Notes under the pieces: generated by a model
Seen by the model: only the letters and a program-made list of their open reading frames with translations
Databases searched by the model: none
What the model was told of the DNA's origin: nothing
Program-made: the position numbers and the translations under genes
Assembly: GCF_014699135.1 (NCBI RefSeq)
Contig: NZ_JACOFT010000002.1
Span: 62,001 to 126,000, forward strand
Direction of reading: 5' to 3'
DNA from: Cognatundibacterium aquatile
Lineage (GTDB): Bacteria > Pseudomonadota > Gammaproteobacteria > Burkholderiales > Burkholderiaceae_D
DNA: 64,000 nt
Shown here: positions 14,199 through 17,766 of the stretch, piece by piece
How positions within the stretch are numbered: position 1 is the first letter of the stretch
Layout of the letters: every line of letters starts with the position of its first letter

Positions 14199-15604
14199 AT
14201 CAACGTGGTAACAGCGGTGCTTTACCGCACCGCTTCTCTGAAGTACTGGACTCCTACTTTTCAGAGTTAGGAGTTGAGTCAGTCCCCGGGATGGCTATTG
14301 CATATAGTGGCGGGCTTGATTCTTCCGCCCTCCTTATGCTGGCAATTGAGTATTGTCGTCTCCGTAAAATTTCCTTGGTTGCAATTCATATACATCATGG
14401 ACTCAGCACAAATGCTGATTCATGGTTTGAGCATTGTCGATCAGTATGTCTTGCACATAACGTGACTTTTTTATATAAAAAAGTCACGCTCGATGTGACT
14501 AAAAAAGAGGGAATAGAGAGCAGTGCACGAAGTGCTCGTTATCTGGCTCTTGGGCGAATTTGCCAAGAACACCAGATCAATTTTTGCCTGACGGCTCATC
14601 ATCAGGATGATCAGGCCGAAACTCTTTTAATGCAGATGTTGAGAGGTTCTGGTGTTGCAGGGTTGTCAGGGATGGATCGATTTAATACTGCAGAGAGTTT
14701 GCTTGGTGTCGGCACCCTGATGTTAATGCGTCCTTTGTTGCAAGAAACCAGGGGCGACTTAGAGCAATTTGTTGATTCGCGCGATATTTTACACATACAC
14801 GATGAGTCAAATGATGACGCACGATTTCTGAGAAACGCGCTAAGACATAAAGTGATGCCCATGTTGGAGGAGGTGTCACCTGGGTTTTCTAAACGTATAG
14901 CAAGAACAGCAACGCACATGCGATCCACCCGTATATTGCTGGAGGATCTTGCCGGACATGATTTAAGTACTTGTTCGGATAATGATGGATTAAGTTTGCA
15001 GTCTATTCGTTCGCTGTCGCCCGAGCGTGTTAATAATTTGTTGCGACTGTGGTTTGCAAGGCTACGGTCAAGAATGCCAACTACCTCAAGGCTGACGGAG
15101 ATACTCAAGCAATTGTTCGATGCGCGTGATGATGCCCGCGTTACAGTTTTCCATGATAATTTGGCGATACATCGATACCGAGACAGAATCTATGCAACCT
15201 CCAGACTGGATGAGCAGGATCGATCGGAAAAGTCTGAGGTATTTAAATGGTCAGGGGAAGATAAGTTAGAGTTCCCAGGCATGGGTGGTACTTTGTATTT
15301 TCAATATTCAGATTTTGGCGTTGATTGTGAGTGGTTAAAAGGGCGATCACTTGAACTTCATTTTCGCCGAGGTGGCGAGCGCCTCAAGTTGGCAGAAAAT
15401 CGATCTACCCGCGATATGAAAAGTCACTATCAATCCTTAAAAATCCCATTTTGGGTAAGGCAGCAGCTACCTTTCGTATCAATTGGAGATCAACTTATAT
15501 TCGCTGCAGGCGTAGGGATGCAGTCCAGCTTCTGTTCGCAAGGGAGTGGAAGCCGGATTTTATTAAAGTGGGTTGCAGAACAATCGAATAAGGTATCCAT
15601 GTGA
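14195..15604 (+). CDS. tilS: tRNA(Ile)-lysidine synthetase TilS
   Basis: A 469-residue N-type ATP pyrophosphatase. The P-loop motif [10 protein letters not shown] is at about residues 29-38; [19 protein letters not shown] follows and is diagnostic for TilS. The middle and C-terminal domains have the usual length. The enzyme turns C34 of the tRNA-Ile(CAU) into lysidine and so lets it read AUA; it is essential in nearly all bacteria. accA-tilS coupling is typical of beta- and gammaproteobacteria. Confidence 0.94.
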
Positions 15605-16323
15605 TGGAAAAGAATTTAAGGCAAATTGTTTTAGATACGGAAACAACCGGCTTAAGTGCGCGCGATGGCAATAGAATTATTGAGATTGGCTGTGTTGAGT
15701 TAATTAATCGGAAATTATCCGGTAATAATTATCATCAATATATTAATCCTGAGCGCGACTCCGAAGAGGGCGCACTTGCAGTGCATGGATTGACCACAGA
15801 ATTTCTTAGTGATAAGCCAAAATTTTCTGATGTGGTCAAGCAGTTTTGCGAATATATTAAAGGTGCTGAAATTGTTATTCACAACGCGCCGTTTGATATC
15901 TCTTTTCTGAACGCTGAGTTTGCCAGAGTCGGTCTGGGGCTGTTTACTGACTATGTTGAAATCGTTACTGATACCTTGGTTCAAGCTAAAGAGTTGCACC
16001 CGGGAAAGCGGAATTCTCTCGACGCTTTATGTGATCGTTACGAAATCTCTAATTCGCACCGAAAGTTGCATGGAGCGCTGCTTGATGCGGAGCTTTTGGC
16101 TGACGTATTTTTGGCGATGTCCCGAGGGCAGAATAGTTTTGAAATCGATTTACCTGTTGAAGAGAAACCGGTAATTGAAGAGGTTGTGTTTGTTGATATT
16201 CCTATCGACGAAGTCATTCTTAAGATGGCGTCACCTGATGAGTTAATTGAGCACGAAACACTTTTATCTGGTTTGGATAAGCAGTTAAAACAGAGTTGTG
16301 TATGGCGAAGTCCGCCTGTATAG
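15604..16323 (+). CDS. dnaQ: DNA polymerase III epsilon subunit
   Basis: A 239-residue 3'-5' proofreading exonuclease. Exo I is LDTETTGL, Exo II is HNAPFDISFLNAEF and Exo III is HGALLDAELLADV, so all acidic ligands of the DEDDh family are present. The C-terminal tail that binds the polymerase and clamp is present (residues about 190-239). ATG 15604 overlaps the tilS stop (TGATG); the GTG at 15601 in the same frame is better spaced from AAGG and is an alternative start. dnaQ next to tilS is unusual; aspartokinase lysC follows tilS in many relatives. Confidence 0.9.
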   Translation: MEKNLRQIVLDTETTGLSARDGNRIIEIGCVELINRKLSGNNYHQYINPERDSEEGALAVHGLTTEFLSDKPKFSDVVKQFCEYIKGAEIVIHNAPFDISFLNAEFARVGLGLFTDYVEIVTDTLVQAKELHPGKRNSLDALCDRYEISNSHRKLHGALLDAELLADVFLAMSRGQNSFEIDLPVEEKPVIEEVVFVDIPIDEVILKMASPDELIEHETLLSGLDKQLKQSCVWRSPPV

Positions 16324-16470
16324 ATTCAAATATAAATAAGCCGTTGCTATTTCGTTATATTTGTTTTGTATTTTTACCTTCCTTTTCGTGGGTTCTCCAC
16401 ATCAAATCTAGGCAGTTTGTTGCGACATTGCACAAAAACAGAAAAAACTTTAAAAAAATCTAAAAATAAT

Positions 16471-16497
16471 TAAAGTTTTTTCTGATGCTGCCGTTAA
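16471..16497 (+). promoter_or_regulatory. sigma-28 (FliA) promoter 1
   Basis: TAAAGTTT (16471-16478), exactly 11 bases, GCCGTTAA (16490-16497). This matches the flagellar sigma-28 consensus TAAAGTTT-N11-GCCGATAA at 15 of 16 positions. Transcription would start near 16503 and run towards flhD. Confidence 0.82.
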
Positions 16498-16541
16498 TAA
16501 ATCAGACAGAAAATATTTTTAAATTTATTTTCTAATTCCCC

Positions 16542-16568
16542 TAAAGTTTTAAAAAATGCTGCCGTTAA
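16542..16568 (+). promoter_or_regulatory. sigma-28 (FliA) promoter 2
   Basis: TAAAGTTT (16542-16549), exactly 11 bases, GCCGTTAA (16561-16568): 15 of 16 consensus positions, the same variant base as promoter 1, and the same ATGCT before the -10 element. The two promoters are a direct repeat with a period of 71 bp. The start would be near 16574. Confidence 0.82.
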
Positions 16569-16573
16569 TGGTA

Positions 16574-16740
16574 TTAAGTTAGGTTAGTTTGGAGTGTTTA
16601 ACTTCAATAAGTATTTGATTTTTATAGAATTTTAGTTTTTAAGCTTGTTTTAGCTTTCTTGAAATTAAAAAATAAAAAATCGACATAAATTCAAAAAATA
16701 AAGCTTGTAAGAATTTGTCTTACGAGCTTCTTCTGTTTTT
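16574..16740 (+). ncRNA. putative sigma-28-dependent small RNA
   Basis: Predicted transcript of about 165 bases (or about 235 from promoter 1), bounded by the sigma-28 promoters and the hairpin at 16701-16729. The only open frames are ATG-GTA-TTA-AGT-stop and a 13-codon GTG frame without a usable ribosome-binding site. The sequence is U- and A-rich, as in Hfq-binding small RNAs. Not recognised as a known family. Existence is inferred from the boundaries only. Confidence 0.5.
16701..16740 (+). terminator. terminator-like hairpin before flhD
   Basis: AAGCTTGTAAGA pairs with TCTTACGAGCTT (12 bp, one G-U), loop ATTTG, followed by CTTCTGTTTTT. The T-run starts a few bases late, so termination may be partial and act as an attenuator before flhD. 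Confidence 0.65.
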
Positions 16741-16850
16741 CCTTCATCTAAATACCTTTTTTTTCCTATACACCCGAATTTTGTGGTCACTCACAATGTA
16801 TCTCAACGGCAAGATACTTCGCCTTTGAACATGTATTGGAGGGTAGGAAA

Positions 16851-17168
16851 ATGACACAGAACGACATGATGGCTGAAATACGTGATGCAAACTTGAGTTA
16901 CTTAATGCTTGCTCAGCAAATGATTCGTGCTGATAAGGCAACTGCCATTTTCCGCCTTGGGATCGGTAAGGAAATTGCTGACTTAATTGAGGGTTTGAAT
17001 AATTCACAAATCCTAAAGCTGGCAGGGTCCAATATGATGTTGGCAAGATTTCGTTTTGAAGACAGCTCGATTCTTTGCATGCTCACTAATTATAATAAAG
17101 AGCGTTCTCTCGCTCATTCTCACGCAGCGATTTTAATGGCAGGTCAGCCTGTCGAAGAAATTCATTAA
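16851..17168 (+). CDS. flhD: flagellar master regulator subunit FlhD
   Basis: A 105-residue FlhD, close to the usual 105-116. It is an alpha-helical dimer with YLMLAQQMIRADKATAIFRLG, the most conserved part of the family. With FlhC it forms the D4C2 complex that turns on class II flagellar genes with sigma-70. ATG 16851 is chosen: GGAGGG sits seven bases before it. A TTG further upstream (16836) in the same frame would place the ribosome-binding site inside the gene. flhC follows 43 bp downstream. Confidence 0.95.
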   Translation: MTQNDMMAEIRDANLSYLMLAQQMIRADKATAIFRLGIGKEIADLIEGLNNSQILKLAGSNMMLARFRFEDSSILCMLTNYNKERSLAHSHAAILMAGQPVEEIH

Positions 17169-17211: not shown

Positions 17212-17766
17212 ATGGCTAGCAAAAGTGTTTTGAATGAAGCATCAGAGATTCAGTTAGCGGTAGATTTAGTAAATCTTGGTGCTCGCTTGCAATTATTGGA
17301 GTCTGAAACGTCACTCTCTCGTGAGAGGCTCTTAAAGATTTATAAAGAGCTGAAAGGTGTGTCTCCTCCGAAAGGAATGCTTCCATTTTCAACGGACTGG
17401 TTTACGACCTGGCAACCAAATATCCACTCATCGTTATTTATGAATATCTATAAATATTTGAATGAGCATGCTGAAGTTTCTGGTATTGAAGCTGTTGTTA
17501 AATCTTATCGGCTTTATCTTGAACAGGTTGGTTGTGTATCGCCTGACGATGCTGTGCTGTCTTTGACGAGAGCGTGGACTTTGGTCCGGTTTTTCGAAGG
17601 GAAAATGCTAACATTTGCAAAATGTTCTGAATGCGGCGGTCATTTTGTTGCACATTCATTGGATTTGAATAATCATTATAAGTGTGGGCTGTGTCATGTT
17701 CCCTCCCGCGCAGGTAAAACTAAAAAAACGAGAGAGGCTGACATTCCTTTGGAGATGGTGGCTTAA
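17212..17766 (+). CDS. flhC: flagellar master regulator subunit FlhC
   Basis: A 184-residue FlhC with the zinc site of the family: C138-x2-C141 and C158-x2-C161 (CSEC and CGLC). FlhC gives the DNA-binding specificity of the FlhD4C2 activator. GAGAGG lies five bases before the ATG. It forms an operon with flhD, and a membrane methyltransferase gene starts 22 bp later. Confidence 0.95.
   Translation: MASKSVLNEASEIQLAVDLVNLGARLQLLESETSLSRERLLKIYKELKGVSPPKGMLPFSTDWFTTWQPNIHSSLFMNIYKYLNEHAEVSGIEAVVKSYRLYLEQVGCVSPDDAVLSLTRAWTLVRFFEGKMLTFAKCSECGGHFVAHSLDLNNHYKCGLCHVPSRAGKTKKTREADIPLEMVA

Follow-up and report, generated by a model that had tools for sequence, protein, structure and literature searches.

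In the textbook flagellar cascade, control runs one way, from FlhDC at the top to sigma28 at the bottom. The region upstream of flhD in Cognatundibacterium aquatile raises the question of whether sigma28 could also feed into flhDC itself and, if so, by which route. We examined this region within a 64,000-nucleotide stretch of the genome, referred to here as the window (assembly GCF_014699135.1, contig NZ_JACOFT010000002.1, positions 62,001 to 126,000). The genes at the locus are as follows.

15601 to 16323, plus strand: dnaQ (DNA polymerase III epsilon; NCBIfam NF004316, 317 bits), the upstream neighbour, on the same strand
16851 to 17168, plus strand: flhD (NCBIfam NF002783, 154.9 bits), with its ATG at 16851
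17212 to 17766, plus strand: flhC (NCBIfam NF009365, 283.9 bits)

The interval from dnaQ to flhD holds no plus-strand open reading frame of at least 60 amino acids, in agreement with an earlier, sequence-only reading of the window that had described a gene-free stretch before flhD. The genome encodes both the sigma factor FliA (320.9 bits) and the anti-sigma factor FlgM (69.6 bits), as judged by NCBIfam models. Among the matches listed, the closest named FlhD by identity is that of U. rivi.

Tandem sigma28-type boxes upstream of flhD

Three features lie in the first part of the interval.

16471 to 16497, plus strand: sigma28-type box 1, TAAAGTTT-N11-GCCGTTAA, 15 of 16 to consensus, predicted start at about 16504; similarly placed boxes occur in relatives
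16510 to 16533, plus strand: A/T-rich stretch just 5' of box 2, a possible UP element, seen as an A/T run in alignments of relatives
16542 to 16568, plus strand: sigma28-type box 2, TAAAGTTT-N11-GCCGTTAA, 15 of 16 to consensus, predicted start at about 16575

Measured against a sigma28 promoter with TAAAGTTT as the -35 element, GCCGATAA as the -10 element and an 11-bp spacer, both boxes match at 15 of 16 positions, each being one mismatch from TAAAGTTT-N11-GCCGATAA. They start 71 bp apart and read towards flhD, so that the pattern scan bears out the tandem pair as it was first proposed. Allowing up to three mismatches, the scan of the window returned four sites against 0.82 expected, a number reached in 3 of 100 shuffles, and the two boxes upstream of flhD are the only sites with fewer than three mismatches. 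Across the whole 3.9-Mb genome, the pattern TAAAGTTT-N11-GCCGNTAA, in which the fifth -10 base is left free, has three exact matches: the two boxes and the flgM promoter, the latter sitting just before flgM, after the end of flgA. When up to two mismatches are tolerated, 13 places fit the pattern and 16 fit its backwards control; just the exact matches are therefore distinctive.

The flgM promoter is a standard sigma28 target and served as our yardstick. Throughout the genus it reads TAAAGTTT-N11-GCCG[A/T]TA[A/T/C], scoring 15 or 16 of 16 in all 30 loci. In five of the 30 the -10 element is GCCGTTA, which places the -10 element of the flhD boxes within the range of flgM promoters. The main flagellin gene fliC (L170) was dropped as a yardstick, since the best sigma28 match upstream of it is 11 of 16 with an 11-bp spacer or 12 of 16 with a 10-bp spacer, against a perfect one for flgM; given these weak matches, the local sigma28 range may differ from the picture based on flgM. 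The FliA sites tabulated for E. coli have the same layout as the flgM and flhD boxes, with 11-bp spacing (PMC4183435).

Conservation of the boxes in relatives

We gathered upstream regions through searches for FlhD. Within the genus, FlhD was found in 40 of 43 genomes, and 30 loci were taken. Wider relatives were represented by the best 80 of 220 FlhD loci, a sample of the order (57 of 160 genomes) and a sample of the family (60 of 69 genomes; 61 FlhD places gave 58 loci, two starts not being located and one contig being too short). The window, 29 genus loci and the best 80 of 220 together make 110 regions, or 91 without duplicates, which we split into an Undibacterium set (n = 38, including the window and five MAGs without a genus name) and 53 others, drawn from the best 80 of 220 loci and mostly named Oxalobacteraceae. 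A box was counted at 13 of 16 or better within 600 bp of flhD, with both GCCGATAA and GCCGTTAA allowed as the -10 element; for the other families of the order sample, the search covered 900 bp upstream of flhD.

The search for the box pair before flhD in relatives had been named beforehand as a test capable of overturning the proposal, and the pair came through it. All 38 loci of the Undibacterium set carry at least one box and 32 carry at least two (dinucleotide shuffles, 1.0 and 0.05). Similarly, at least one box is present in 52 of the 53 other loci from the best 80 of 220, and at least two in 49 (dinucleotide shuffles, 0.95 and 0). The family sample has at least one box within 600 bp in 41 of 58 loci and at least two in 28 (dinucleotide shuffles, 0.75 and 0); for two of the 41 (L128 and L247), the sole match lies 59 bp before flhD and is probably due to chance. 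Restricting the count to 200 to 600 bp leaves 39 of 58 loci with at least one box and 28 with at least two, or 23 and 17 of 33 when counted by genus. The counts are not independent, because the sequences are related and the three sets share members: over 300 bp, 10 family-sample loci are the same as loci of the best-80 set.

Beyond the family, boxes become rare. Among 46 loci from other families of the order, nine have at least one box, two of these being single 14-of-16 matches (L131 and L148), and four have at least two, found in 3 of 3 loci of family f25 and 1 of 2 of family f34. Boxes are thus absent from 37 of the 46 loci of other families, and from 19 of the 58 family-sample loci (at 13 of 16, beyond 200 bp), indicating that any feedback loop built on them is dispensable.

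Where boxes occur, the last one mostly lies 300 to 322 bp from the flhD start (genus loci and best 80 of 220), and the distance between boxes ranges from 63 to 161 bp. Some loci have three boxes instead of two upstream of flhD (L052, L079, L096, L109, L119 and L122). Variable spacing and three-box loci are as expected for independent promoters. Further, ten box-bearing sequences taken across genera all have the same CCCTAAAGTT and TGCCG in box 2, whereas most spacer bases are free. On the reverse strand of the same regions, a box match was found in 3 of 149.

These features bear on whether the boxes might be sites of another flhDC regulator that resemble sigma28 promoters by chance. The N12 spacer of a few first boxes would fit such sites. 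The half-elements and the 11-bp spacing nonetheless agree with the flgM promoter and with the E. coli FliA sites tabulated in PMC4183435, orientation is kept, and the distance between boxes is variable, which together make this explanation very improbable. The prediction that sigma28 acts directly on the flhDC control region is well supported, because the only exact sites in the genome are the flhD boxes and flgM, and because the boxes are conserved well beyond what shuffled sequences give.

A palindrome and a putative ordinary promoter between the boxes and flhD

The remainder of the interval contains the following features.

16608 to 16622, plus strand: TAAGTATTTGATTTT, a TAAG-N4-TTGNTTT-like element made of invariant and nearly invariant columns of alignment A1 (37 Undibacterium-set sequences)
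16701 to 16729, plus strand: 12-pair hairpin with a T-rich tail, from a terminator scan, with pair counts on alignment A1
16706 to 16724, no strand: 19-bp palindrome TGTAAGA-N5-TCTTACG inside the hairpin, a putative operator, with order-wide conservation and RcsB-like half-sites
16750 to 16798, plus strand: putative ordinary flhDC promoter, a block in the alignments
16750 to 16756, plus strand: AAATACC, part of the putative promoter
16765 to 16771, plus strand: CCTATAC, part of the putative promoter, at the -35 position
16792 to 16798, plus strand: CACAATG, part of the putative promoter, -10-like

We scored the 14 fixed bases of the palindrome, written TGTARGA-N5-TCYTACA, accepted some alternative bases, and required at least 12 matches no more than 350 bp from flhD. 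The Undibacterium set has it in 31 of 38 loci, the others from the best 80 of 220 in 51 of 53, the family sample in 50 of 55, and the other families in 31 of the 42 loci scored out of 46; shuffles yield 0.000 to 0.011 across these sets, with 0.000 for the other families. Of the 31 in other families, 26 have no sigma28 box by the criteria applied to that sample, indicating that the palindrome is part of flhDC control in its own right.

An AAATAC-like motif follows the palindrome at 22 to 26 bp in 36 of 50 family loci, with none in an upstream 60-bp control. In the Undibacterium set the motif occurs at this distance in 15 of 31 loci and in the control in 4; in other families both counts are 2, out of 31 loci. 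Together with CCTATNC and CANAATG, as they read in the family, this motif probably forms the ordinary flhDC promoter, and the palindrome is best read as its putative DNA operator. In the flhD 5' leader that follows CACAATG (16792 to 16830), a short inverted repeat can often be seen by eye, GGC..GCC here and CTGGC..GCCAG in relatives.

The Burkholderiales palindrome contains RcsB-type half-sites, TARGA and TCYTA, before flhD. The RcsB (RcsAB) box of E. coli flhDC has the half-sites TAGGA and TCTTA (PMC5829831) and is likewise an arrangement of palindromic half-sites upstream of flhD. Scored against our palindrome, the E. coli site matches 12 of 14 positions with a 4-bp spacer and 9 of 14 with a 5-bp spacer. 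The Burkholderiales sites, scored with N5, depart from the 4-bp half-site spacing of the E. coli RcsB box (PMC5829831) and carry TGT/ACA ends.

Elsewhere in the genome, near matches to the palindrome with one mismatch gave eight rows, some of which are both strands of one place. We took these as chance occurrences and not as further operators: on contig 15 they fall within coding regions, and the one on contig 1 resembles a tRNA T-arm.

The hairpin as a possible terminator, operator or attenuator

The hairpin claimed before flhD, with 12 pairs and a T-rich tail, is present at 16701 to 16729 and ends 121 nt before the flhD ATG; the surrounding 1.3 kb contains three terminator-like sites, compared with 0.9 in shuffles. 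One explanation of the locus is that the boxes drive a separate small RNA of about 160 to 230 nt that ends at this hairpin and acts in trans, like the sigma28-dependent RNAs of E. coli, so that transcription reaches flhDC little or not at all. Several observations agree with it. Of the 38 Undibacterium-set loci, 27 have a U-rich tail (at least 5 T in the 8 bases after the stem) behind the hairpin; the window's own tail passes the terminator scan and fails this count, in which the stem ran into the T-tail. Open reading frames of at least 15 amino acids preceded by a Shine-Dalgarno sequence occur in 18 of 89 leaders, and the window has none, just a 37-codon frame without such a sequence. Further, the segment 16504 to 16752 folds better than shuffles (z -3.06), and the conserved element at 16608 to 16622 lies in the predicted leader, some 35 to 45 nt past the expected start from box 2.

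The same explanation meets difficulties outside the Undibacterium set, where the boxes persist though the U-rich tail is mostly missing (5 of the 53 others from the best 80 of 220, and 10 of 52 family-sample loci). An intrinsic terminator is therefore not kept along with the promoters, the tail being frequent in the Undibacterium set only. The leader differs greatly in length and sequence between genera, and the core of the hairpin is the palindrome found across the order. No Rfam family matches anywhere in the window at gathering score, as the sequence-only reading had anticipated in stating that the RNA has no recognised relative. At E <= 1, three sub-threshold matches fall within 16330 to 16880, the best being the trpB motif RF04312 at 16647 to 16739 (28.4 bits against a gathering score of 59). 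In ten relatives searched at E <= 0.5, we found tRNAs and sub-threshold matches, none of them between the last box and flhD. The sub-threshold matches are probably due to chance, RF04312 not being repeated in the ten relatives. Overall, we consider a separate small RNA unlikely as the general function of the boxes; within Undibacterium, a terminated small RNA is possible.

Whether the palindrome also acts as RNA is a separate matter. Box-bearing genomes often have pairing that extends past the palindrome. The Duganella and Massilia relatives show a shifted stem, TTTGT-NAG-ACAAA, plus an outer stem. Of 151 distinct regions, among them up to 13 hand-picked order-sample loci, 131 contain loose core patterns. 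In alignment A1, 84.9% of the cells of the helix are paired, compared with 78.4% in shuffles and 40 to 57% in slid versions, and 29 cells are changed on both sides, compared with 9.9 in shuffles. The measures that resist relatedness lie near the shuffles: pairs changed on both sides number 5 against 3.4, a value reached by 69 of 500 shuffles, and further pair types number 15 against 13.6, reached by 140 of 500. Covariation therefore does not stand out.

Comparisons between strands and between genomes give a similarly mixed picture. Taking every locus, the better-folding strand is the sense strand in 109 cases and the antisense strand in 28 for box-bearing regions, and in 22 and 26 for box-free regions; in this comparison at least one locus (L127) was centred on the wrong place. 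When the family sample is averaged per genus and order-sample loci are taken singly, the ratios become 19:11 and 19:21, which is not significant (p 0.18). With the same averaging, the hairpin is more stable where boxes are present (z -2.48, n = 31, against -1.18, n = 40; p 0.005). The strand test on G-T against A-C cells is mixed, giving 69 against 6 for pairs 6 to 9 of the Undibacterium-type hairpin and 127 against 114 for pairs 1 to 18 of the Massilia type. These results are suggestive only of an RNA hairpin beside the DNA operator in box-bearing genomes, and an RNA role of the hairpin is possible but secondary. A more elaborate idea is that the operator palindrome was extended into a sense-strand hairpin in box-bearing lineages, serving both as DNA operator and as attenuator of the FliA-driven transcript and so metering the loop from FliA to flhDC; we regard this as doubtful.

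The proposal of late-promoter feedback on flhDC thus stands in part. Its sigma28-like boxes, their orientation and their conservation hold up. The small RNA ended by a terminator is not supported in the form proposed, since the hairpin overlaps a palindrome that is common in box-free genomes and the U-rich tail is frequent in the Undibacterium set only. We favor the view that the boxes are FliA promoters lying before, and pointing into, the ordinary flhDC control region, where they would close a direct loop from the last flagellar class to the first, and from the sequence comparisons we think this probable. Once the hook-basal body is complete, export of FlgM would free FliA to begin transcription at the boxes. 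The RNA would pass through a non-coding leader of about 280 to 350 nt and then continue, at least partly, into flhDC, so that the supply of FlhDC is kept up in cells already committed to motility. The hairpin would be firstly the DNA operator of the ordinary promoter, and the added RNA structure in box-bearing genomes may attenuate read-through. FliA dependence and read-through are both predicted from sequence; transcription into flhDC is the most likely route of feedback, and a positive sign is the most likely for the loop.

As to the sign of the loop, promoter interference is the strongest competitor. Sigma28-driven transcription might disturb the operator or the ordinary promoter, or the long transcript might be poorly translated, so that flhDC output drops late. 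The position of the boxes upstream of the putative operator and promoter, with transcription crossing both, is compatible with this, and we also count for it a translationally inert sigma28 transcript of fliA that Tanabe reportedly described in Salmonella in 2011. In the window, the flhD start region has an accessibility of 0.25 with the long leader and 0.35 with shuffled leaders, 3 of 15 shuffles being as low. Across the 89 loci, the long transcript has a lower accessibility than the short one in 57 and a higher one in 6 (by more than 0.05). Shuffled leaders give nearly the same result, however (0.368 for the real leaders against 0.389; lower in 50 of 89, mean z -0.32), and the flhD start is therefore not specifically closed. 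We accordingly rejected translational control by the long leader as an effect of length, and a negative loop seems to us quite unlikely.

If the favored loop is correct, the sigma28 pair would link the two ends of the flagellar circuit on the DNA itself in a large set of environmental bacteria, and it predicts memory or bistability of motility after FlgM export. The order-wide palindrome offers a specific starting point for identifying which regulator sets flhDC in Burkholderiales.

Comparison with known flagellar circuits

The promoter type is familiar; its place, its tandem form and its wide conservation set the flhD pair apart. Kutsukake is said to have reported in 1997, for autogenous control of the Salmonella master operon, an effect of FliA on flhD; genetically, this would be the closest precedent. 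Among the literature matches listed, which comprise titles and abstract starts and include few subscription journals, none names a sigma28 promoter before flhDC. In E. coli, the region upstream of flhD has no sigma28 box above 10 of 16, and no FliA site upstream of flhD appears among the listed rows of the ChIP-seq table (PMC4183435); there is therefore no tested precedent. The class III promoters of E. coli tar, yhjH and flgMN (PMC4183435), like flgM in the present genome, share the TAAAG and GCCG[A/T]TA elements and the 11-bp spacer. Unlike them, the flhD boxes stand in tandem before a class I operon, about 280 to 380 bp from the start codon.

Small RNAs provide a second comparison. Of the four sigma28-dependent small RNAs of E. 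coli, one is FlgO. The other three, UhpU, MotR and FliX (PMC10578931), resemble the flhD locus in combining a sigma28-type promoter with non-coding sequence tied to flagellar control. As described in the part of that study consulted, the E. coli RNAs arise elsewhere than upstream of flhD and act at other points (PMC10578931), whereas any RNA of the flhD locus is a prediction from sequence, and its terminator-like tail is not general beyond the genus. Campylobacter has a FliA-dependent RNA and no FlhDC (PMC11187230).

A third comparison is with feedback on FlhDC in Salmonella, which involves FliZ/YdiV, FliT and RflM (PMC5809477, PMC3946378). As with FliZ/YdiV and FliT, late flagellar products would feed back on the master regulator (PMC5809477). 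The Salmonella loops, as presented there, act through proteins on FlhD4C2, whereas the flhD boxes would let sigma28 act at the flhDC DNA itself (PMC5809477).
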